From NCBI RefSeq assembly GCF_012641515.1, contig NZ_JABAHY010000002.1, positions 214,371-278,370 on the forward strand: a stretch of 64,000 nt of DNA. Reading direction: 5' to 3'. Position numbers and translations under genes: made by a program. Each line of letters starts with the position of its first letter. Position 1 is the first letter of the stretch. The notes under the pieces are model-generated. The model did not search any database. It was given only the letters and a program-made list of their open reading frames with translations, and was not told the DNA's origin. Shown here piece after piece: positions 7,305 to 52,664 of this stretch. The stretch is from Nesterenkonia sedimenti. GTDB lineage: Bacteria > Actinomycetota > Actinomycetes > Actinomycetales > Micrococcaceae.

Positions 7305-8717
7305 ATGACCGATCTCGCCGAACTGACAGCCGTTGAGCTGCTGGAAGGCTACTCGGAGGGCAGCTTCACCCCGGTGGATGCCACCGAGGCCGCTCTGGAC
7401 CGGATTGAACAGCGCGACGGCGACCTCAATGCCTTCGTACTGGTGGACCGGAAGGTCGCTCTGTCCATGGCGGAGGAATCCGCCAAACGGTGGAAGAACG
7501 GCGAGACCCTGGGCCCCGGTGACGGTGTGCCCACCTCGATCAAAGACCTCCTGCTGACCAAGGACTGGCCGACCCTGCGTGGCAGCAAGCTCATCGAGGA
7601 GACCGGGCCCTGGCCCGATGACGCCCCCGCGGTGGCGCGGCTGCGCGAGACCGGTGCGGTCTTCCTGGGGAAGACCACCACTCCGGAGTTCGCCTGGAAG
7701 GGTGTCACCGACTGCCTGCGCCATGGGGAGACCACCAATCCCTGGAACTCCAGCCGCCATGCCGGGGGATCCTCCGGCGGTGCTGCAGCTGCTGTGGGCT
7801 CGGGTATGGGCCCCTGGTCAGTGGGTACCGATGGCGGCGGTTCGGTGCGTATCCCGGCCTCCTTCACCGGGACTGTGGCGCTGAAGCCGACCTACGGCAC
7901 CGTGCCCCTCTATCCCTCCTCACCCTTCGGGACCCTGGCCCATGGTGGCCCGATGACCCGCACGGTTAAGGACACTGCCCTGCTGCTGGATATCATCGCC
8001 GGCTTCGACTCCCGCGACTGGTCGGCTCTGCCGACCCAGACGCGCTCTTTCACTGAAGGGATCGAGGACGGTATCGAGGGGCTGCGGATCGCCTACTCCC
8101 CGAACCTGGGCTTCGGTAAGAACGACCCCGAGGTGCAGCGACTGGTCGATGAGGCCGTGAAGGTCCTCGAGGACCAGGGGGCGATTGTCGAACAGGTCGA
8201 CCCGCAGATCAGTGATCCCATCGAGGCCTTTCACGTGCTGTGGTTCACCGGTGCCGCGAAAGTTCTGGAAGCCTACGGGGACAACGCCCTGGAGAACATC
8301 GACCCCGGTCTGCGCAAAGGAATCGAGAAGTACCAGGACGCCTCCGCCCTGGACTATCTCAGCGCCAACGCTGTGCGGATGGATATGGGCCTGATCATGG
8401 GTGCTTTCCACGAGAAGTACGATCTGCTGGTCACCCCGACCATGCCGATCACAGCCTTCGACTGCAAGCGTCAGGTCCCTGAGGGGTGGGACGGAGATAT
8501 CTGGACCTCCTGGACTCCGTATACCTATCCCTTCAATATGACCCAGCAGCCGGCGGCCTCTGTGCCCTGCGGTGTCTCGAAGACCGATGGCCTGCCGGTG
8601 GGCCTGCAGTTTGTGGGAGCACGCACCCAGGACCGCCTGGTGCTGCGCGGTGCCCGCGCCTACGAGAAGGCATCGGGCGAGCCCTTCGCGCGGCCGGTGC
8701 CGCCGAAGTCCGCCTGA
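7305..8717 (+). CDS. Amidase (amidase-signature family)
   Basis: 470 residues. The Lys-cisSer-Ser triad is visible: K80 in SIKDLL, S156 in GGSSGGA and S180 in GTDGGGSVRIPA. These enzymes hydrolyse linear amides to a carboxylic acid and ammonia. A strong AGGAGGGG site precedes ATG 7305. The gap of 51 bp to the dehydrogenase gene and shared orientation suggest one GntR-controlled operon that deamidates an amide and then handles the acid. GatA is unlikely because gatB and gatC are absent nearby and the length and sequence fit broad-specificity amidases better. Confidence 0.88.
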   Translation: MTDLAELTAVELLEGYSEGSFTPVDATEAALDRIEQRDGDLNAFVLVDRKVALSMAEESAKRWKNGETLGPGDGVPTSIKDLLLTKDWPTLRGSKLIEETGPWPDDAPAVARLRETGAVFLGKTTTPEFAWKGVTDCLRHGETTNPWNSSRHAGGSSGGAAAAVGSGMGPWSVGTDGGGSVRIPASFTGTVALKPTYGTVPLYPSSPFGTLAHGGPMTRTVKDTALLLDIIAGFDSRDWSALPTQTRSFTEGIEDGIEGLRIAYSPNLGFGKNDPEVQRLVDEAVKVLEDQGAIVEQVDPQISDPIEAFHVLWFTGAAKVLEAYGDNALENIDPGLRKGIEKYQDASALDYLSANAVRMDMGLIMGAFHEKYDLLVTPTMPITAFDCKRQVPEGWDGDIWTSWTPYTYPFNMTQQPAASVPCGVSKTDGLPVGLQFVGARTQDRLVLRGARAYEKASGEPFARPVPPKSA

Positions 8718-44782: not shown

Positions 44783-46123
44783 TCAGGCGGCTTTGCGGTG
44801 TGCGCGGCTGTCTGAGGGTAGGTCGGCGTTGGGTGGGGGTAGGTATCCGTGGGATTTGAGTCGGTGATGGCGTCTACAGAGTGCCCAGAGGTTGGCCCCG
44901 GTGGTGGGTCCGGCTCTTTCGTGGGGGATCTGATGATCGAGATCGCTGCGTTCGGCTGTGATGGTGCAGCCTGGTGCCTGGCAGACCCCGTCACGGAAGA
45001 TAATCGCATCCCGTAGTCGTTCGGGTGCGAACCGGCCGTTGTAAACCACGCTGAGAATGTCCCGGTCTGCCTGTTTCTTGTTCTTTTGAGTACCAGCGGT
45101 GTACCACTCATGCTCCGCCTCGGGATCAGCAGCCAGTTTCCGGATATCCGCGGCGGGGATGACGCTGGCCCGGTCGGAGCTGATGGCGGGTTCGTCTGAT
45201 CCCCCGGTCAGCGTCTCTTCGGGGACCATCACGCAGATCTTGGCGGAGATGGGTGTGCTGTAGCAATGGCCATCGCGCAGACAGGCGCTGAGGAGGTCTG
45301 CCTCCCGCTGACGGATGGTCCGATCATCCACATCGGCAGCAGCGGTCTCGGGGTCGTAGTCCTGATGCCGGGCATCGAAGTCGATCGGAGTGTTCTCGTC
45401 CACTCCCACTGCGGCTGGATGAGATCCGTCGATGAGCGGCTGGTCGGAATCCTTTGGTTGTGCCCGGTTCATTCCTCGTGCTGCGGCGTGGACCTTCTTC
45501 TCGATCGCCTTAGCCTCAACAGTCGGGATGTAGAGCTCCAAGAAGCTCATGCCGTTTTCACCGTGGTAGAAGCTGGCATACCGGTGTTCCTTGGCTTCCT
45601 CGGCTGCTGCGTTGAACAGCTCCACGTCTAGTTCGGGGATACGGCGGATCACCCAGTTCTTCAACTCGGATGGGGTCTTCCCCGGAGCTATCTCGGCTAG
45701 TTCGGCATCGAGGATCTCCAGCAGGTCCTCGCGGTGGATGATGGGGCTGGTCTCTACAGCGGCCTTGCGGAGTGTGGTGAGGTTGATGGCACCGGTGCGG
45801 AAGGTTTTCCAGAACTTCGGCAGGTGCTCACGCACGTATTCAGCGTCATTGAGTACGGCGGTGGCCTGCTGGTCACTCATCCCCAACAGGACTCCGGCCT
45901 GCCGGTTGGCCTGCCGGGCATCAGCAGCTCGGATGAAGGGACTCTCACCAGTGACGGCTTTCTGCCGCGCCGCACGATGGGTGAGGAAATGCTCAATAGA
46001 GGTGGCGGTGGCGCGATTGGCATCAATGATGGATTCCCAGGCAGCTTCCATTCCCTCTTCACACATGAAGTGAGAGGCACGCTCCGGAATCTCCGGGCGA
46101 GGAAACTGCTGTTCATCCTTCAT
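44783..46123 (-). CDS. DUF222-HNH endonuclease
   Basis: 446 residues from ATG 46123 (MKDEQQFPRPEIPERASHF). The N-terminal DUF222 region (about 30-330) is followed by an HNH domain near 375-420: CQAPGCTITAERSDLDHQIP, then LWALCRRHHRLKSHG, with the His and Asn ligands present. Actinobacterial genomes carry many such genes, some inside mobile 13E12-type elements; the target is unknown. The frame opens 30 bp earlier, but TAGCGT lies 7 nt before 46123, so the leaderless start is preferred. Confidence 0.87.
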   Translation of the reverse strand: MKDEQQFPRPEIPERASHFMCEEGMEAAWESIIDANRATATSIEHFLTHRAARQKAVTGESPFIRAADARQANRQAGVLLGMSDQQATAVLNDAEYVREHLPKFWKTFRTGAINLTTLRKAAVETSPIIHREDLLEILDAELAEIAPGKTPSELKNWVIRRIPELDVELFNAAAEEAKEHRYASFYHGENGMSFLELYIPTVEAKAIEKKVHAAARGMNRAQPKDSDQPLIDGSHPAAVGVDENTPIDFDARHQDYDPETAAADVDDRTIRQREADLLSACLRDGHCYSTPISAKICVMVPEETLTGGSDEPAISSDRASVIPAADIRKLAADPEAEHEWYTAGTQKNKKQADRDILSVVYNGRFAPERLRDAIIFRDGVCQAPGCTITAERSDLDHQIPHERAGPTTGANLWALCRRHHRLKSHGYLPPPNADLPSDSRAHRKAA

Positions 46124-46130
46124 GAAACCC

Positions 46131-46136
46131 ACGCTA
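46131..46136 (-). promoter_or_regulatory. -10 hexamer of leaderless DUF222-HNH gene
   Basis: TAGCGT on the minus strand, 7 nt before ATG 46123. Confidence 0.45.
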
Positions 46137-46271
46137 CCCCTGGCACCGGACATGCCCAGATACCAGGTGGCACCTGTCTAAGTGGCTGCTGTTGATCTCC
46201 ATACACCCACTGTACGAAGGGGTGCGGACATGGCGATGTTCCAAGGGTTCGGACTCGCAGTGAAAACCAAA

Positions 46272-47295: not shown

Positions 47296-49086
47296 GTGAG
47301 TAATCAAGAGCACGTCATAGCAGTGATTGGAGCGGGTCCGAGGGGGACTTCCTTTCTCGAACGACTCCTGGCCCATGTGGAGCAGCAGGCAATTCGTACC
47401 CAGTCAGAACTTCCCCCACTGCGAGTCTTGGTTATTGACCCCGCGCGCCATGGCTCCGGCAAGATCTGGGATCCCGAGCAGTCGCCGCGGTACCTCATGA
47501 ACACCCCCGCAAGCTTCCCCACAGCAGCACCTGCCGGTGCCACCCAGGAGGAACTCACACCATCCTCCTGCTCCACGAGCTTTCTCCAGTGGGCCAAAAA
47601 GCAGGGGCTCGCATATAACGACGGCGACTTCCCCCGCCGTGCTGACTACGGCGCCTATCTGCGCTGGCTCCATCAGGAAGCAGTCTCCGGGCTGCGAGCC
47701 AACGGGGTCTCGGTCGAAGAGATCCCTGACGAAGTCACATCCATCAGCGCCGGGAAGAACTGGTACGGCCTGCTCATGGCCCAAGGCCCGGCCCGCGAAG
47801 CCAACGCCGTCATTCTAGCCCTGGGGCATGTCCCGGCAGAACCTGCTGGCCCCGCCGCTCGGCTGAGCAGCCAGGCCCAGAAACTCGGACTGCACTATCA
47901 GGTGCCCGCCATCCCCACAGATGTGGACTACAACCGGTTCGAAGCCGGTGAGAACGTCCTGGTCCGTGGCATGGGCCTGAACTTCTTCGACCTCATGATC
48001 GAGGTCACCGCCGGACGTGGTGGGCGCTTCAAACAACACCTCTCCGGGGATCCCGGCCACCGGTTGGACTACCAGCCCTCAGGCCAGGAGCCGATCCTCA
48101 TCGCAGGATCCCGCCGAGGCACCCCCTACCGCGCGAAAACGGTGGCACCGGGCTTCGTGCCCGAAGGTGTCGAGCTCACCCAACTCACCGATGAGGTCAT
48201 CGAGGAGCTCATCCGCGAACATCAGCAGTTGGACTTCGCCGCCCACCTCTGGCCGCTCATCGAGGCCGATATGCAGCAGACCTACCGGCGCATCGGCGGC
48301 GACCCCCAGGCTGAGTTCAAGCTGGAGGAATTCACCAGGCCCTTCGACCACCAGTTCTTCGGCTCCGCCCAGGAGTACCAGCAGGCCATGGCTACCTGGC
48401 TAACCGAGGACGCGGCCACTGCCGCAGAAGGGGCCCAGAACCCCCAAAAGATGGCCGTAAATGCCCTGCATGCCGCCCGGCTGAAGGTCAAACACTTGGT
48501 CACCGAACGCCGGATCACCCAGACATCCCTCCTGCGCGACGTTGAAGGCTGGTTCGAAGCCACCGTGGAGGGACTGACCAGTGGCCCGCCTCTGCAGCGC
48601 ATCGAGGAGCTCGCCGCCCTCGCTCGGGCCGGGATCGTCCAATTCCTGGGGCCGTCCCCGGTCTACGGTGTTGAGCATGACGAGGGGCTCTTCATCGCTG
48701 ACTCCTCGGCGGTCAGCGGAGCCCGCTATACCGCCCGGTACATGATCGAAGCCATGATGCCGCCGAATCGCATAACCCAGTCCAGCGCCCCACTGGTGCG
48801 CAGCCTCCTCGAGGCAGGAACGGCCCGGCCAGCAACTTTCCGAGCCGGCGGGGAGAGCCATGTGCATAAGGGCTTCGCCGTAACTGACTCCCCCCACCGT
48901 CTGCTGACCAGTAGGGACAGCGTCGTCGAGGGTATCTACGTGCTGGGACTGCAGCTCTCCTCAGCCCAGTGGGGAACGGCCATCGCCGCTGAAGCCGGAG
49001 GTCAGATCACGACGACGGCGCGGAGCCTGGCAGATGCCGATGCCGTCGTCGTCGATATTCTCAGCCGAGCACCTTCCCGGGGTTGA
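47296..49086 (+). CDS. FAD/NAD(P)-binding protein
   Basis: 596 residues from GTG 47296 (VSNQEHVIAVIGAGPRGTSF). GAGPRGTSFLER is the FAD-binding glycine motif of the large FAD-NAD(P)-binding family; GKIWDPEQSPRYLMNTPAS and ENVLVRGMGLNFFDLMIE follow. The family's activity is mostly unknown. A GTG at 47287 would add three residues, but the TAATGT hexamer points to 47296. The last 26 bp overlap the 3' end of the opposite FAD-linked oxidase gene. Confidence 0.82.
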   Translation: MSNQEHVIAVIGAGPRGTSFLERLLAHVEQQAIRTQSELPPLRVLVIDPARHGSGKIWDPEQSPRYLMNTPASFPTAAPAGATQEELTPSSCSTSFLQWAKKQGLAYNDGDFPRRADYGAYLRWLHQEAVSGLRANGVSVEEIPDEVTSISAGKNWYGLLMAQGPAREANAVILALGHVPAEPAGPAARLSSQAQKLGLHYQVPAIPTDVDYNRFEAGENVLVRGMGLNFFDLMIEVTAGRGGRFKQHLSGDPGHRLDYQPSGQEPILIAGSRRGTPYRAKTVAPGFVPEGVELTQLTDEVIEELIREHQQLDFAAHLWPLIEADMQQTYRRIGGDPQAEFKLEEFTRPFDHQFFGSAQEYQQAMATWLTEDAATAAEGAQNPQKMAVNALHAARLKVKHLVTERRITQTSLLRDVEGWFEATVEGLTSGPPLQRIEELAALARAGIVQFLGPSPVYGVEHDEGLFIADSSAVSGARYTARYMIEAMMPPNRITQSSAPLVRSLLEAGTARPATFRAGGESHVHKGFAVTDSPHRLLTSRDSVVEGIYVLGLQLSSAQWGTAIAAEAGGQITTTARSLADADAVVVDILSRAPSRG

Positions 49087-50455
49087 GGATCCCCAGCGGA
49101 TCCAGGGCCTGCTTGACCGCCAGCATCGCCGGGACAGCTGAACGGTGCTCTTTGGCCATCGAAGCCACTTTGCCGACCCCCACACCGTGCTCACCGGTGC
49201 AGGTCCCGCCCATGGCCAGGGCGCGATCCACCAGGCGTTCATTGATCTGCTTGGCCTGGGCATAGGCCTGCTCATCACCTGGTGGCAGCAGGATGGCCAG
49301 GTGGAAGTTGCCATCACCTACGTGGCCGGCGATGGGGGCGATGAGATCGGTGGTTTCGAGGTCCTTCTTGGTCTCCAGAATGCACTCGGGCAGCCGCGAG
49401 ATCGGCACACAGACATCGGTGGGCAGCACCTTCGCATTCGGCACCAGGTGCTGTGAGGCCGGCAGGACGTCCGCCCTGGCCTGCCAGGTGCCCCGGACTT
49501 CCTCCGGTTCAGTGGTGGAGCTGAACTCCTCAGCGTTGAAACTGCGCGCCAACTGGGCGAACTGCGCGTAGTGAACCGGAGTCTCCGCCTCGTTACCGGT
49601 GAACTCCACGATGATGGTGTCGGCAGGTTTGGCGGTGTAGCCGTTGTACTCCTTCAGCGCGCGGATGGTCGGCGCATCGAGAAGTTCTACGCGGGTCAGT
49701 GGCAGTGAGGCGCGCAGGGCTGCAACAACCAGCTGGGCAGCGGTTTCGAGGTCGGGTAGGGACCAGACACCAACTGCGGTGCAGGCCGGAAGGGGGTGCA
49801 GGTTCACAGTGACCTCGGTGATGATCCCGAGGGTTCCCTCGGAGCCCACGAAAAGATGCGTGAGGTCATAGCCGGCTGAGGTCTTCTTCGTGGTGGAACC
49901 GGTGCGGATCACCGAGCCGTCGGCCAGCACCACGGTCAGTGCCAGCACGTTCTCCTTCAATGTCCCGTAGCGGACCGCGGTGGTGCCGCTGGCTGAAGTT
50001 GAGGCCATACCCCCGATGCTGGGATCGATGGCCGGCCCCGCGGCGAACTGCAGACCATGGGGCTCCACTGCGGCGTTGAGCTCGGACTTCAGCACCCCCG
50101 CCTCTGCAGTGGCGTACATGTCATCGGCGGCGATATCCACCACCTGGCGCATCCCGGAGACATCGATGCAGATGCTCCCGGCGGTGGTGTTGGCCCCGCC
50201 TTCCAGGCCCGTGCCTGAGCCGCGGGGGACCACGGGTGTCTGATGCTCATGGCAGATGCGCACCGCGGTGGCGACATCCTCGGTGCTGGTAGCCCTCACC
50301 GCCGCCTGAGGCAGCTCCCAGCCGTGGTGGGAGCGGTCATGGGACAGTGGCTCGAGGTCCTCGGCCGCAGTGAGAACTTTGTCTCCCAGGGCGGAGATCA
50401 GGGCTTGTACGACGCCGTCGTCGCGGGTTTCAGGGGTTTCAGAAGAAGTCGCCAT
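49061..50455 (-). CDS. FAD-binding oxidase / D-lactate or glycolate dehydrogenase-like (GlcD type)
   Basis: 464 residues from ATG 50455. The PCMH-type FAD domain has TPVVPRGSGTGLEGGANTTA at about 72-91 and AAGPAIDPSIGGMASTSASG. The C-terminal oxidase domain has HVGDGNFHLAIL and GTCTGEHGVGVGK. These enzymes oxidise D-2-hydroxyacids to keto acids. The acceptor and exact substrate are unknown; D-lactate and glycolate are usual. TTG 50464 is an alternative start. Confidence 0.88.
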   Translation of the reverse strand: MATSSETPETRDDGVVQALISALGDKVLTAAEDLEPLSHDRSHHGWELPQAAVRATSTEDVATAVRICHEHQTPVVPRGSGTGLEGGANTTAGSICIDVSGMRQVVDIAADDMYATAEAGVLKSELNAAVEPHGLQFAAGPAIDPSIGGMASTSASGTTAVRYGTLKENVLALTVVLADGSVIRTGSTTKKTSAGYDLTHLFVGSEGTLGIITEVTVNLHPLPACTAVGVWSLPDLETAAQLVVAALRASLPLTRVELLDAPTIRALKEYNGYTAKPADTIIVEFTGNEAETPVHYAQFAQLARSFNAEEFSSTTEPEEVRGTWQARADVLPASQHLVPNAKVLPTDVCVPISRLPECILETKKDLETTDLIAPIAGHVGDGNFHLAILLPPGDEQAYAQAKQINERLVDRALAMGGTCTGEHGVGVGKVASMAKEHRSAVPAMLAVKQALDPLGILNPGKVLG

Positions 50456-50468
50456 CCACTTCAAATTA

Positions 50469-51293
50469 TCACCGCAACTGCGAGATCAGTTGAGCACGAT
50501 TAGTGGTCCCCGTTTTCCGCAGCAGCTTGGAGATATGGAACTTCACAGTATGTTCCGAGATGTCGAGGTGCTGGGCGATTTGGGCATTGCGCAGACCCTC
50601 TCTTAGGCAGTCGAGTACCTGCTTCTCGCGGTCGGAGAGGTTAGTGAGTTCATGCAGCGGCGTAGGGGTCGGGGGTGGATCCAACGGGATGGTGATCCCC
50701 AGTTCGGTGCCCCATCCTGGGGTGGAATCCACCTCCAGTTTTCCCCCTAAGGCGGATACATGTTCGGCAATCGGCCGGAGGGTATCGTCATGGGCGCGCA
50801 GCTCACCCTTGCCGTCGTCGCGGATGCCGATCAGCAGATTGAGGCCATCGCAATCCCAATGAATCCGTACCCGTTGAGCCTCAGCCGTATTGGTAAATGA
50901 GAGAACTGCATTGCGCACAATCGCGCGGGCAGCTTGGGCGACATCACCGGGCAGTGCGCGGCCGTTCTCGGGGGGTTCGACAAATTCAACCTCGAGCTGT
51001 CCAAAGCGCACCAGGGGTTTCAAGTCGTTCTTCAGCCGGGCGAAGGCCCCCACCACAGGCTCTAAGAGGTCGTCTCGGCGCTCATCGGAATCAGTTCGCA
51101 GTTGCACTAACGCGGTAGCTGCAATGTGAATGGCCGTTTCCCGGGCCGCGCGGTCCTCAAGACGGTTGGAGCGCAGTGTTGCAAGCAGGGACTCCAGGGT
51201 GACCGCGTAACGGTCTGACTGTTCGGACAGCGCCCGAGCATGGGCTGAGAGCTGGATTCGCGCATCCTGTGGAGCTGGCTCAGGGGGAGTCAT
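50469..51293 (-). CDS. HATPase-LuxR fusion regulator
   Basis: 274 residues. A helical region (about 10-95) is followed by a GHKL-type ATPase core (about 110-205): ARAIVRNAVLSFTNT as the N-box, LIGIRDDGKGEL as the G1-like box and TPGWGTELGITIPL as the G2-like box. A LuxR HTH ends the protein (LSDREKQVLDCLREGL; IAQHLDISEHTVKFHISKLL). There is no receiver domain and no clear phospho-acceptor His. It thus looks like a kinase-derived sensor tied directly to DNA binding. It is divergent from the formaldehyde-fixing genes hxlB-hxlA. ATG 51293 is 7 nt after TACTCT. Confidence 0.82.
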   Translation of the reverse strand: MTPPEPAPQDARIQLSAHARALSEQSDRYAVTLESLLATLRSNRLEDRAARETAIHIAATALVQLRTDSDERRDDLLEPVVGAFARLKNDLKPLVRFGQLEVEFVEPPENGRALPGDVAQAARAIVRNAVLSFTNTAEAQRVRIHWDCDGLNLLIGIRDDGKGELRAHDDTLRPIAEHVSALGGKLEVDSTPGWGTELGITIPLDPPPTPTPLHELTNLSDREKQVLDCLREGLRNAQIAQHLDISEHTVKFHISKLLRKTGTTNRAQLISQLR

Positions 51294-51300
51294 AGTCGTC

Positions 51301-51306
51301 AGAGTA
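51301..51306 (-). promoter_or_regulatory. -10 hexamer of the leaderless HATPase-LuxR gene
   Basis: TACTCT on the minus strand, 7 nt before ATG 51293. Confidence 0.5.
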
Positions 51307-51316
51307 ACCGCAAAGT

Positions 51317-51374
51317 ACTACCCGAAGGTATAGCCCTATACGAACGGCTAGCCCACCTACCCATTCCGGGTAGT
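51317..51374. promoter_or_regulatory. Inverted repeats between the fusion regulator and hxlB
   Basis: The outer arms ACTACCCG (51317-51324) and CGGGTAGT (51367-51374) enclose GTATAG-CC-CTATAC (51328-51341), a perfect 14-bp palindrome. They fill the short divergent gap and are candidate sites for the LuxR-type HTH. Confidence 0.55.
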
Positions 51375-51407
51375 GACGTGCATCACTGTGCGGAAGATGA
51401 TCGAAGG

Positions 51408-51983
51408 GTGATTGAAAAGCATAGTTTCCACTCCTCGTTGAGCCAGATTCGTGACGAACTCTCCCGAACACTGGCCACTATCTGTCAGGACCAACAAGAA
51501 GCTTTAGAGCAGATGGCCGAGATGATCGGCGGTGCTGAACGCATCTTCGTGCTCGGCGCCGGGCGCTCGGGCTTAGCTCTCCAAATGACAGCGATGCGGC
51601 TCATGCACCTGGGAAAGGAGGCTTATGTCGTTGGGGAAACCACCACACCGGCCATTCGGGGAGGGGATGTGCTCCTCACCGCCTCTGGCTCCGGCACGAC
51701 CGGGAGTGTGGTCCGTGCGGCGGAGCAAGCCCGGGGTGCCGGGGCAACTGTCGTCTGTTTCACAGCCCGGCAGCATTCTCCCTTGGGGGAGCTCGCTGCT
51801 GCCGCCGTGCTGATCCCCGCGGCTGAGAAGCTGGACCGTTCTGGGGCTGCGTCAGCCCAGTATGCCGGCAGCCTCTTCGAGCAGGCCGTGGTGATTGCCG
51901 GGGACGCCTTGTTCCATGCCCTGTGGCAGCGCAGCGGGCGCAGCGCCGACGAGCTGTGGCCTCGCCACGCCAATATCGAGTAA
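51408..51983 (+). CDS. hxlB: 6-phospho-3-hexuloisomerase
   Basis: 191 residues from GTG 51408. SIS domain: AERIFVLGAGRSGLALQMTA at about 34-53, GETTTPAIRGGDVLLTASGSG and PAAEKLDRSGAASAQYAGSLFE, the family's phospho-sugar site. It turns hexulose 6-phosphate into fructose 6-phosphate after hexulose phosphate synthase has fixed formaldehyde on ribulose 5-phosphate. GATGAT lies 6 nt before GTG 51408; GTG 51378 would add ten residues. hxlA follows after 57 bp. Confidence 0.88.
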   Translation: MIEKHSFHSSLSQIRDELSRTLATICQDQQEALEQMAEMIGGAERIFVLGAGRSGLALQMTAMRLMHLGKEAYVVGETTTPAIRGGDVLLTASGSGTTGSVVRAAEQARGAGATVVCFTARQHSPLGELAAAAVLIPAAEKLDRSGAASAQYAGSLFEQAVVIAGDALFHALWQRSGRSADELWPRHANIE

Positions 51984-52040
51984 CACTTCCCAGAGTTTTC
52001 CCTAGCCCCAGTAGGAATCGATCGTAAGGAATCATCAACA

Positions 52041-52664
52041 ATGAAGATTCAATTTGCCATGGACACTTTGACCACCGAGCAGGCTCTGGAGTGGGCAAGT
52101 CAGGCTGCCCCGCATGTAGACATCCTTGAGCTCGGTACCCCGCTGATTAAAAGTGCGGGGCTTTCCGCGGTGACCGCGGTCAAGAAAGCTCATCCGGATA
52201 AAACTGTCTTTGCGGATATGAAAACTATGGATGCTGGGGAGCTTGAGGCGGATATCGCATTCAAAGCAGGTGCAGATTTAGTGACAATTCTGGGCACCGC
52301 GGATGACTCCACCATCGTTGGTGCTGTTCAAGCTGCCCGGGCTCACAGCAAAGGGATTGTGGTCGACCTCATCGGTGTGAGGGATAAGGCCGCTAGGGCA
52401 AGGGAGGTGGTGAAACTCGGCGCAGAATTTGTGGAGATGCACGCCGGTCTGGATGAGCAGGCTCAAGAGGGGTACTCCCTGGATGGCCTTCTGGAGGCGG
52501 GCAGAACTGCCCAGGTTCCGTTCTCTGTAGCGGGTGGGGTGAAGGATTCCTCAATTGGTGCAGTGAAGGATGCCGGGGCTCAGATTGCGGTAGCCGGAGG
52601 CTTTATCTATTCCGCTAACGATGTTGGAAGCGCAGCCAAGAAGTTGCGTGAAGCCATCGCTTGA
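52041..52664 (+). CDS. hxlA: 3-hexulose-6-phosphate synthase
   Basis: 207 residues of the orotidine-decarboxylase-like barrel. D8 (AMDT), E30 (DILELGTPLI) and D59-K61-D64 (ADMKTMD) form the family active site; VAGGVKDSSI and AVAGGFIYS bind phosphate. It condenses formaldehyde with ribulose 5-phosphate. AAGGAAT precedes ATG 52041. With hxlB it completes the two-step RuMP formaldehyde-fixing route, for assimilation or detoxification. Confidence 0.92.
   Translation: MKIQFAMDTLTTEQALEWASQAAPHVDILELGTPLIKSAGLSAVTAVKKAHPDKTVFADMKTMDAGELEADIAFKAGADLVTILGTADDSTIVGAVQAARAHSKGIVVDLIGVRDKAARAREVVKLGAEFVEMHAGLDEQAQEGYSLDGLLEAGRTAQVPFSVAGGVKDSSIGAVKDAGAQIAVAGGFIYSANDVGSAAKKLREAIA

Follow-up and report, generated by a model that had tools for sequence, protein, structure and literature searches.

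Within a stretch of 64,000 nucleotides from Nesterenkonia sedimenti (contig NZ_JABAHY010000002.1, positions 214,371 to 278,370; hereafter the window), a gene for a regulator of 274 aa (50469–51293, minus strand), in which a decayed histidine-kinase core is joined to a LuxR helix-turn-helix (HTH), lies next to two genes for formaldehyde fixation: (i) hxlB (51408–51983, plus strand), encoding 6-phospho-3-hexuloisomerase, and (ii) hxlA (52041–52664, plus strand), encoding 3-hexulose-6-phosphate synthase and assigned from its open reading frame (ORF) and NCBIfam match. Both products scored above the NCBIfam equivalog cut-offs (HxlB with 233 bits on TIGR03127, HxlA with 246 bits on TIGR03128). An earlier annotation made from the letters alone (referred to as the sequence-only reading) had placed the regulator divergently from hxlB and hxlA, and the ORFs are indeed found in this arrangement.

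The C-terminal LuxR/GerE HTH of the regulator (residues 216–272; 50478–50648, minus strand) is recognized by Pfam at 4e-19 (residues 218–271), whereas HATPase_c is matched at 2.8e-4, i.e., under Pfam's cut-off. A receiver domain was not detected by Pfam at E up to 1, and the response-regulator models of NCBIfam matched the HTH only (among the 25 of 43 matches listed). An AlphaFold2 model built from a 55-sequence alignment reached a mean predicted local distance difference test score (pLDDT) of 78.6 and a predicted template modelling score (pTM) of 0.57. It comprises two N-terminal helices of low confidence (residues 8–41 and 48–71), predicted to form a DHp-like region (residues 8–71; 51081–51272, minus strand) with Ser26 at the acceptor position of the H-box, followed by a CA (Bergerat-type) domain (residues 78–206; 50676–51062, minus strand; about 76–93 pLDDT per ten-residue block) and then by the HTH. 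The modelled CA domain superimposes on that of VraS (Z 17.1, rmsd 2.5 Å over 125 residues) and of DesK (Z about 16), the latter also being the top match of Foldseek, and the profile of the regulator core matches the CA domain of DosS/DevS at 3e-5. The fusion of a kinase-type core with a LuxR HTH, the ATPase-type fold and the missing receiver, as expected in the sequence-only reading, are borne out by the domain searches and the model: the protein is, as modelled, a kinase-derived DHp-CA core fused to a LuxR/NarL HTH without a receiver. The ORF 49061–50464 (minus strand) for an FAD-linked, GlcD-like oxidase lies on the strand of the regulator gene, starting 4 bases past its stop, and co-transcription of the two is possible; a GlcD-like ORF at this position was not seen in the 80 named loci.

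Loss of kinase chemistry was followed across 113 aligned rows (the window protein and 112 loci). The H-box register (position 26) was read by eye from the general motif, and the N-box positions 128 and 132, corresponding to the catalytic Glu and the Mg-binding Asn, were assigned by alignment to DosS. Position 26 is occupied by A, T, V, R, S, Q, G, M or I, never by His, in 111 of the 113 rows (two rows have no letter there), confirming that a phospho-acceptor His is missing; a His is present at position 29 in 84/113 rows, with Tyr in the window protein. Position 128 is never Glu, position 132 never Asn, and the G2 motif is absent or replaced in the alignment to DosS. The G1 motif DxGxG is kept (D159 in 113/113, G161 in 111/113 and G163 in 112/113 rows), and the residues of the CA domain invariant in all rows include R123, R143, W146, C148, D149, G150, R158, D159, G184, W194 and G195. 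With the N-box Glu/Asn, G2 and the H-box His all lost, the kinase very probably no longer functions: catalysis is very unlikely, and ATP binding by the core is uncertain. The regulator is classed neither with the histidine kinases, given the loss of His, N-box and G2, nor with the response regulators, given the missing receiver.

Homologues of the regulator at E ≤ 1e-12 are present in 29 of 149 same-family genomes. An order-wide sample of 248 genomes was searched for the regulator and likewise for HxlA and FdhA. It yielded 20 regulator places, distributed over 18 genomes: 17 places are less than 2 kb from hxlA on the opposite strand, two (G575 and G463) are divergent from fdhA, encoding glutathione-independent formaldehyde dehydrogenase, and one (L211, i.e., G659:C11, 1–19501) is divergent from transketolase-transaldolase genes in a trimethylamine/ribulose monophosphate (RuMP) island, where a long-form regulator shares 20 kb with gnd, zwf, trimethylamine monooxygenase and hxlAB. 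HxlA exceeded its cut-off in 20 genomes, 17 of which also contain the regulator (p 2.5e-22 by Fisher's test, with no correction for relatedness). All searches combined yielded 113 loci, of which 95 adjoin hxlA/hxlB (95/95 divergent), nine adjoin fdhA (six divergent, three on the same strand) and nine adjoin neither. Among the latter, L049, L067 and L081 are at contig ends (with hxlAB about 4–5 kb off in L067), L066 is a truncated copy, L051 is on a 4-kb contig, L058 (same strand) and L211 (divergent) are beside transketolase, L071 carries an exact operator (see below) directly upstream, and L128 has a 12/14 operator upstream of a small ORF preceding the regulator. The proposed conservation of the fusion beside hxlAB in other genomes therefore holds (17/20 places order-wide, 95/113 loci), and linkage of the regulator to formaldehyde removal is strongly supported by gene order. 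A phylum-wide profile search matched 194 of 396 genomes, with five full-length places among the matches listed (G009, G000, two in G463, G445), the other listed matches being HTH-only. In the window's own genome, L002 was rejected as a paralogue, as the match there is a response regulator paired with an ordinary kinase, and so were the other 12 matches, which start at residue 190 or later and cover the HTH or little more.

Several further features were observed at the chromosomal loci. The compact methylotrophy island of L211 also holds a gene resembling a TMAO permease (below cut-off). In two Frigoribacterium loci (L097 and L107), hxlA is directly beside the regulator and hxlB was not matched at 1e-12, possibly reflecting loss of hxlB. 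In L123, L132, L209 and L128, a small ORF (133–134 aa in the latter two) is found alongside fdhA or the regulator; it is HbpS/GlcG-like by eye, and the two representatives tested had no NCBIfam match at 1e-25. An fdhA-like frame at G012:C5:40226-41173, with an internal TGA and a break near its start, is probably a decaying copy; its genome belongs to the same genus and gave no match for the regulator.

The regulator was also found in 15 PLSDB plasmid records, each below 60 % identity and annotated as LuxR C-terminal-related (11), helix-turn-helix (1) or response regulator family (1), or not annotated (2). Twelve records were examined, the remaining three being from Streptomyces cellulosae; the two unannotated ones were checked for hxl by tblastn. 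Formaldehyde genes are divergent from the regulator in 11 of the 12: (i) hxlBA with zwf, in several cases also gnd or pgi, on Rhodococcus plasmids, (ii) hxlBA-zwf on the plasmid of Arthrobacter ERGS1, (iii) hxlBA, S-(hydroxymethyl)mycothiol dehydrogenase and an MBL hydrolase on plasmids of S. cellulosae and Corynebacterium deserti, and (iv) the mycothiol enzyme alone, with no hxl within 6 kb, on the plasmid of Streptomyces sp. ITFR-16. The plasmid of Rhodococcus sp. NBC_00297 has no formaldehyde genes within 5 kb of the regulator.

A 16-bp operator, CTACCCGNNCGGGTAG, recurs in most regulator gaps. The window contains three copies: 51318–51333 and 51336–51351 (each 11/14 to the consensus) and the 17-bp variant CTACCCATTCCGGGTAG at 51357–51373. 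The 14-bp palindrome highlighted in the sequence-only reading (GTATAGCCCTATAC, 51328–51341, 6/7 pairs) is present, as are the inverted arms around it (ACTACCC at 51317–51323 and GGGTAGT at 51368–51374); it represents the junction of operator copies 1 and 2 and not a conserved unit, and was rejected as the functional unit in favour of the 16-bp operator common to the relatives. The best site reaches at least 11/14 in 76 of the 99 divergent gaps, compared with 74 of 1980 control segments of equal length taken from these loci; for at least 13/14, the numbers are 32 of 99 and 3 of 1980. Exact copies number seven in the 248 genomes, and four of the seven fall between the regulator and hxlB or fdhA. 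The operator also precedes fdhA (14/14 in L209/G575, 13/14 in M. murale L123, 12/14 in L132, 11/14 in L210 and L131). On plasmids, the regulator gap of C. deserti contains a 13/14 site, that of Streptomyces ITFR-16 a 12/14 site, and those of S. cellulosae and Arthrobacter StoSoilB13 sites of 11/14. Significance of the operator comes from these relatives, since in the window by itself the motif occurs no more often than chance would give (3 matches with up to 3 mismatches against 3.26 expected). The hxl sites of the window carry 3 mismatches, and its genome contains 204 such sites (626 for the reversed control pattern), too many to single out a regulon. In L134, a second operator (13/14, 7787–7802) lies just past the end of the regulator match, in addition to an exact one in the gap.

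The longest ORF of hxlB begins at 51378, but translation probably starts at GTG 51408, because the alignment with most homologues begins no earlier than residue 9; the HxlB of L067, unlike most, aligns from residue 1. A −10-like hexamer, GATGAT (51396–51401, plus strand), is located 6 bases before this GTG, and the start region GATGATCGAAGGGTG of the window matches GATGATCGAGGGATG of L070. Such close proximity of the hexamer to the start suggests a leaderless hxlB mRNA. Between operator copy 3 and the hexamer, GTGACGTGCATCAC at 51373–51386 resembles a CRP/GlxR-type site, the consensus of which is GTGA-N6-TCAC; carbon-source control of hxlB through this site is possible judging from the match.

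Centres of operator copies 1, 2 and 3 are 82.5, 64.5 and 43 bp before GTG 51408. The distance of copy 2 is near the value preferred in short-form relatives, and across the named loci the site centre is 64.5–66.5 bp from hxlB in 18 of 34 strong sites. Sites of activators of the LuxR/NarL type are located upstream of or at −35. Since the hxlB start is probably leaderless, sites at about −65 and −43 would suit an activator, and activation is considered likely from this spacing. Repression relieved by formaldehyde is rather unlikely, as the position of the two sites argues against it, but would agree with the divergent layout and the operator in the shared gap, an organization common among repressors. 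A precedent is given by FrmR, which works likewise according to the accessible part of PMC8879981.

Taken together, the gene order and operator data moderately favour the regulator as a one-component, formaldehyde-responsive activator of formaldehyde sinks, its pseudokinase core sensing formaldehyde or an adduct of it. A HisKA_3-type histidine kinase would have lost its chemistry and gained a LuxR/NarL HTH, yielding a one-component regulator; a dimer of this protein would bind tandem 16-bp palindromes (CTACCCGNNCGGGTAG) in the gap separating its gene from hxlB, about 65 and 43 bp before the probable hxlB start, activate hxlBA and probably tune its own gene. The signal would be formaldehyde or a formaldehyde adduct, perceived by the pseudokinase core with Cys148 of the CA domain as the first candidate contact. 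The individual parts of this proposal differ in strength: regulation of hxlBA by the regulator is highly probable, whereas the site and nature of sensing, considered in the following, are less so.

In the short forms, the sensor should be sought in the core, the HTH or a partner protein, because nothing else is present, and sensing by the pseudokinase core appears somewhat better than an even guess. Within the core, Cys148 (codon at 50850–50852, minus strand) is invariant in 113/113 aligned rows and in 12/12 plasmid copies. In other orders, eleven distant relatives (at ten loci, 33–43 % identity) show the same kinase decay, but have V, L, A or I in place of Cys148 (0/11). Neighbours of nine of the ten distant loci were tested (one each, two for L219), with a formaldehyde enzyme only at L219 and no match at 1e-60 for four of the neighbours; L227 has two partial FdhA-like matches (37 % and 30 %) within 6 kb of its regulator copies. 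From this distribution, Cys148 as the reactive residue is a tentative assignment. One may speculate further on a class of actinobacterial one-component regulators in which a histidine kinase transmitter has become a reagent-type sensor: the dead CA domain would capture formaldehyde (or a thiol adduct) at Cys148 and signal to the fused HTH without ATP, phosphate or receiver, with family members repeatedly re-paired with different sinks, though this version in full is doubtful. A core that merely dimerizes the HTH, control being exerted by another protein (e.g., a heterodimerizing true kinase) or by expression level, would be compatible with the predicted DHp-like helices and with a short form devoid of a recognized sensor domain; the conservation within the CA domain (W146, C148, D149, G150, R158, D159, G184, W194, G195) presumably exceeds the needs of dimerization, rendering such a non-sensing role improbable.

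As to the signal, formaldehyde or its adduct is the substrate that HxlA has in common with FdhA and the mycothiol enzyme. Formaldehyde is thus the economical signal for hxl-, fdhA- and mycothiol-linked copies, several of which have the same operator, and formaldehyde or an adduct is likely to be what the regulator senses. A sugar phosphate of the RuMP pathway (ribulose-5-P, hexulose-6-P or fructose-6-P) as the signal would fit the location of most copies by hxlAB and of some by zwf, gnd, pgi, tkt or tal, but has little probability in view of (i) the fdhA-linked copies (9/113 loci, in separate branches) and (ii) the plasmid copy facing mycothiol-dependent formaldehyde dehydrogenase with no hxl within 6 kb, neither of these enzymes acting on a sugar phosphate. 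In a tree of 82 cores, a 28-row clade holds the long forms and a 54-row clade the short forms including the window protein, and the fdhA label requires at least three changes (gains or losses), forced by starred branches. A nucleotide-state switch, in which ATP/ADP occupancy of the core sets DNA binding, is hardly probable, as the Bergerat-type fold and the retained D159, G161, G163 and terminal G195 (111–113 of 113 rows) are opposed by N-box Glu/Asn that never occur, a G2 motif absent from the DosS alignment and an energy signal that would leave the linkage to several formaldehyde sinks unexplained. From the one-protein sensor of formaldehyde removal envisaged in the sequence-only reading, the single protein, the kinase-derived core with its HTH and the linkage thus stand, whereas the ATPase acting through its ATP state is not borne out, the H-box His being lost as well.

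A number of observations weigh against formaldehyde-responsive activation by the core. With respect to spacing, same-family gaps show no fixed distance (25.5–181.5 bp over 12 strong sites), and the distance is not fixed in long-form gaps either, which weakens the positional argument for an activator. With respect to the operator, (i) its consensus was derived from part of the gaps scored, (ii) the exact form occurs at just 4 of the 20 order-wide regulator places, (iii) exact copies of the reversed control pattern are more numerous (about 32 in the 248 genomes), so that the evidence lies in where the operator copies stand and not in how many there are, (iv) six Rhodococcus hxl gaps on plasmids score 9–10/14 and that of Arthrobacter ERGS1 scores 9, (v) the Nesterenkonia fdhA gaps reach 8–10/14 with a shorter-spaced variant, and (vi) nine operator-bearing genomes contain 23 sites with ≤1 mismatch, 10 in regulator loci and 13 elsewhere. 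The 80 named loci, being the best 80 of 569 by similarity, lean toward hxl-linked kin. As for Cys148, L235 retains it with formaldehyde genes absent within 5 kb, L219, opposite mycothiol-dependent formaldehyde dehydrogenase, has an N-terminal CTGRP motif but no Cys148, and the alignment contains no conserved Lys in the core mirroring the Cys-Lys bridge of HxlR. Finally, long forms (L040–L058, L062, L063, also L211 and L219) possess an extra N-terminal domain of about 150 aa with a conserved [EQ][DE]CTGRPxK-like motif, and this domain may serve them as sensor. The Cys of the motif is missing from the long forms linked to fdhA (L060, L061, L064, L065, L209, L210). The domain is GAF-like by eye, with no Pfam match near cut-off in those tested (the L063 reference being partial).

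Apart from the regulator locus, the window contains a DUF222 ORF (44783–46153, minus strand) with a weak HNH-endonuclease match, presumably a member of a common actinobacterial repeat family.

Among known systems, the HisKA_3 kinases VraS, DesK and DosS have the CA fold and G1 in common with the window regulator, as well as the profile match to the DosS CA domain, but the regulator is without H-box His, N-box Glu/Asn and G2, and its output is a fused HTH. Response regulators of the NarL/FixJ type share the C-terminal GerE HTH and differ by their receiver domain. FlhR of Paracoccus denitrificans is of the LuxR type. Together with FlhS it represents a formaldehyde-induced kinase/DNA-binding pair controlling formaldehyde genes (accessible part of PMC8879981); compared by description, this pair consists of two proteins operating by phosphotransfer, whereas the window regulator is a single protein without His or receiver. 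The same portion of this source describes RamA of Corynebacterium glutamicum as a LuxR-type HTH regulator of actinobacterial C1/C2 metabolism. Membership in the RamA family was rejected, the NCBIfam match being HTH-only with 23.2 bits versus a cut-off of 500. FrmR, AdhR and TtmR are further formaldehyde-tied regulators, with a conserved cysteine in FrmR and AdhR (PMC8879981, accessible part), and differ by belonging to the CsoR/RcnR, MerR and MarR families, respectively. The formaldehyde regulators listed in the accessible part of this 2022 review are FlhRS, HxlR, TtmR, AdhR, FrmR and RamAB/GlxR; a kinase-derived LuxR fusion is not among the descriptions given there.

A description of the family was not found in the open literature, subscription papers being outside this scope, nor in the accessible parts of PMC3466318, PMC7835342, PMC5023230 and PMC8879981. 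There is a good chance that the regulator family is undescribed, and it probably represents a type of formaldehyde-response regulator not yet described. In the window's order, and likewise on plasmids of Streptomyces, Rhodococcus, Arthrobacter and Corynebacterium, its neighbours are RuMP, fdhA and mycothiol-dependent genes. If correct, the proposed function would help to explain how such bacteria switch on formaldehyde removal, would clearly exemplify the conversion of a two-component kinase into a one-component regulator, and would make available to synthetic methylotrophy a small sensor whose candidate operator is defined.

HxlR of Bacillus subtilis (MarR/DUF24 family) is a formaldehyde-responsive, one-component activator of hxlAB that uses a cysteine (accessible parts of PMC7835342 and PMC8879981). 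It resembles the window regulator in its one-component nature, in the formaldehyde genes hxlAB and in the cysteine. An HxlR-type winged HTH was not among the 12 Pfam families matched by the window regulator, and HxlR is distinguished from it by this unrelated winged-HTH fold, by a Cys11-Lys13 bridge located in a helix and by having no kinase core.

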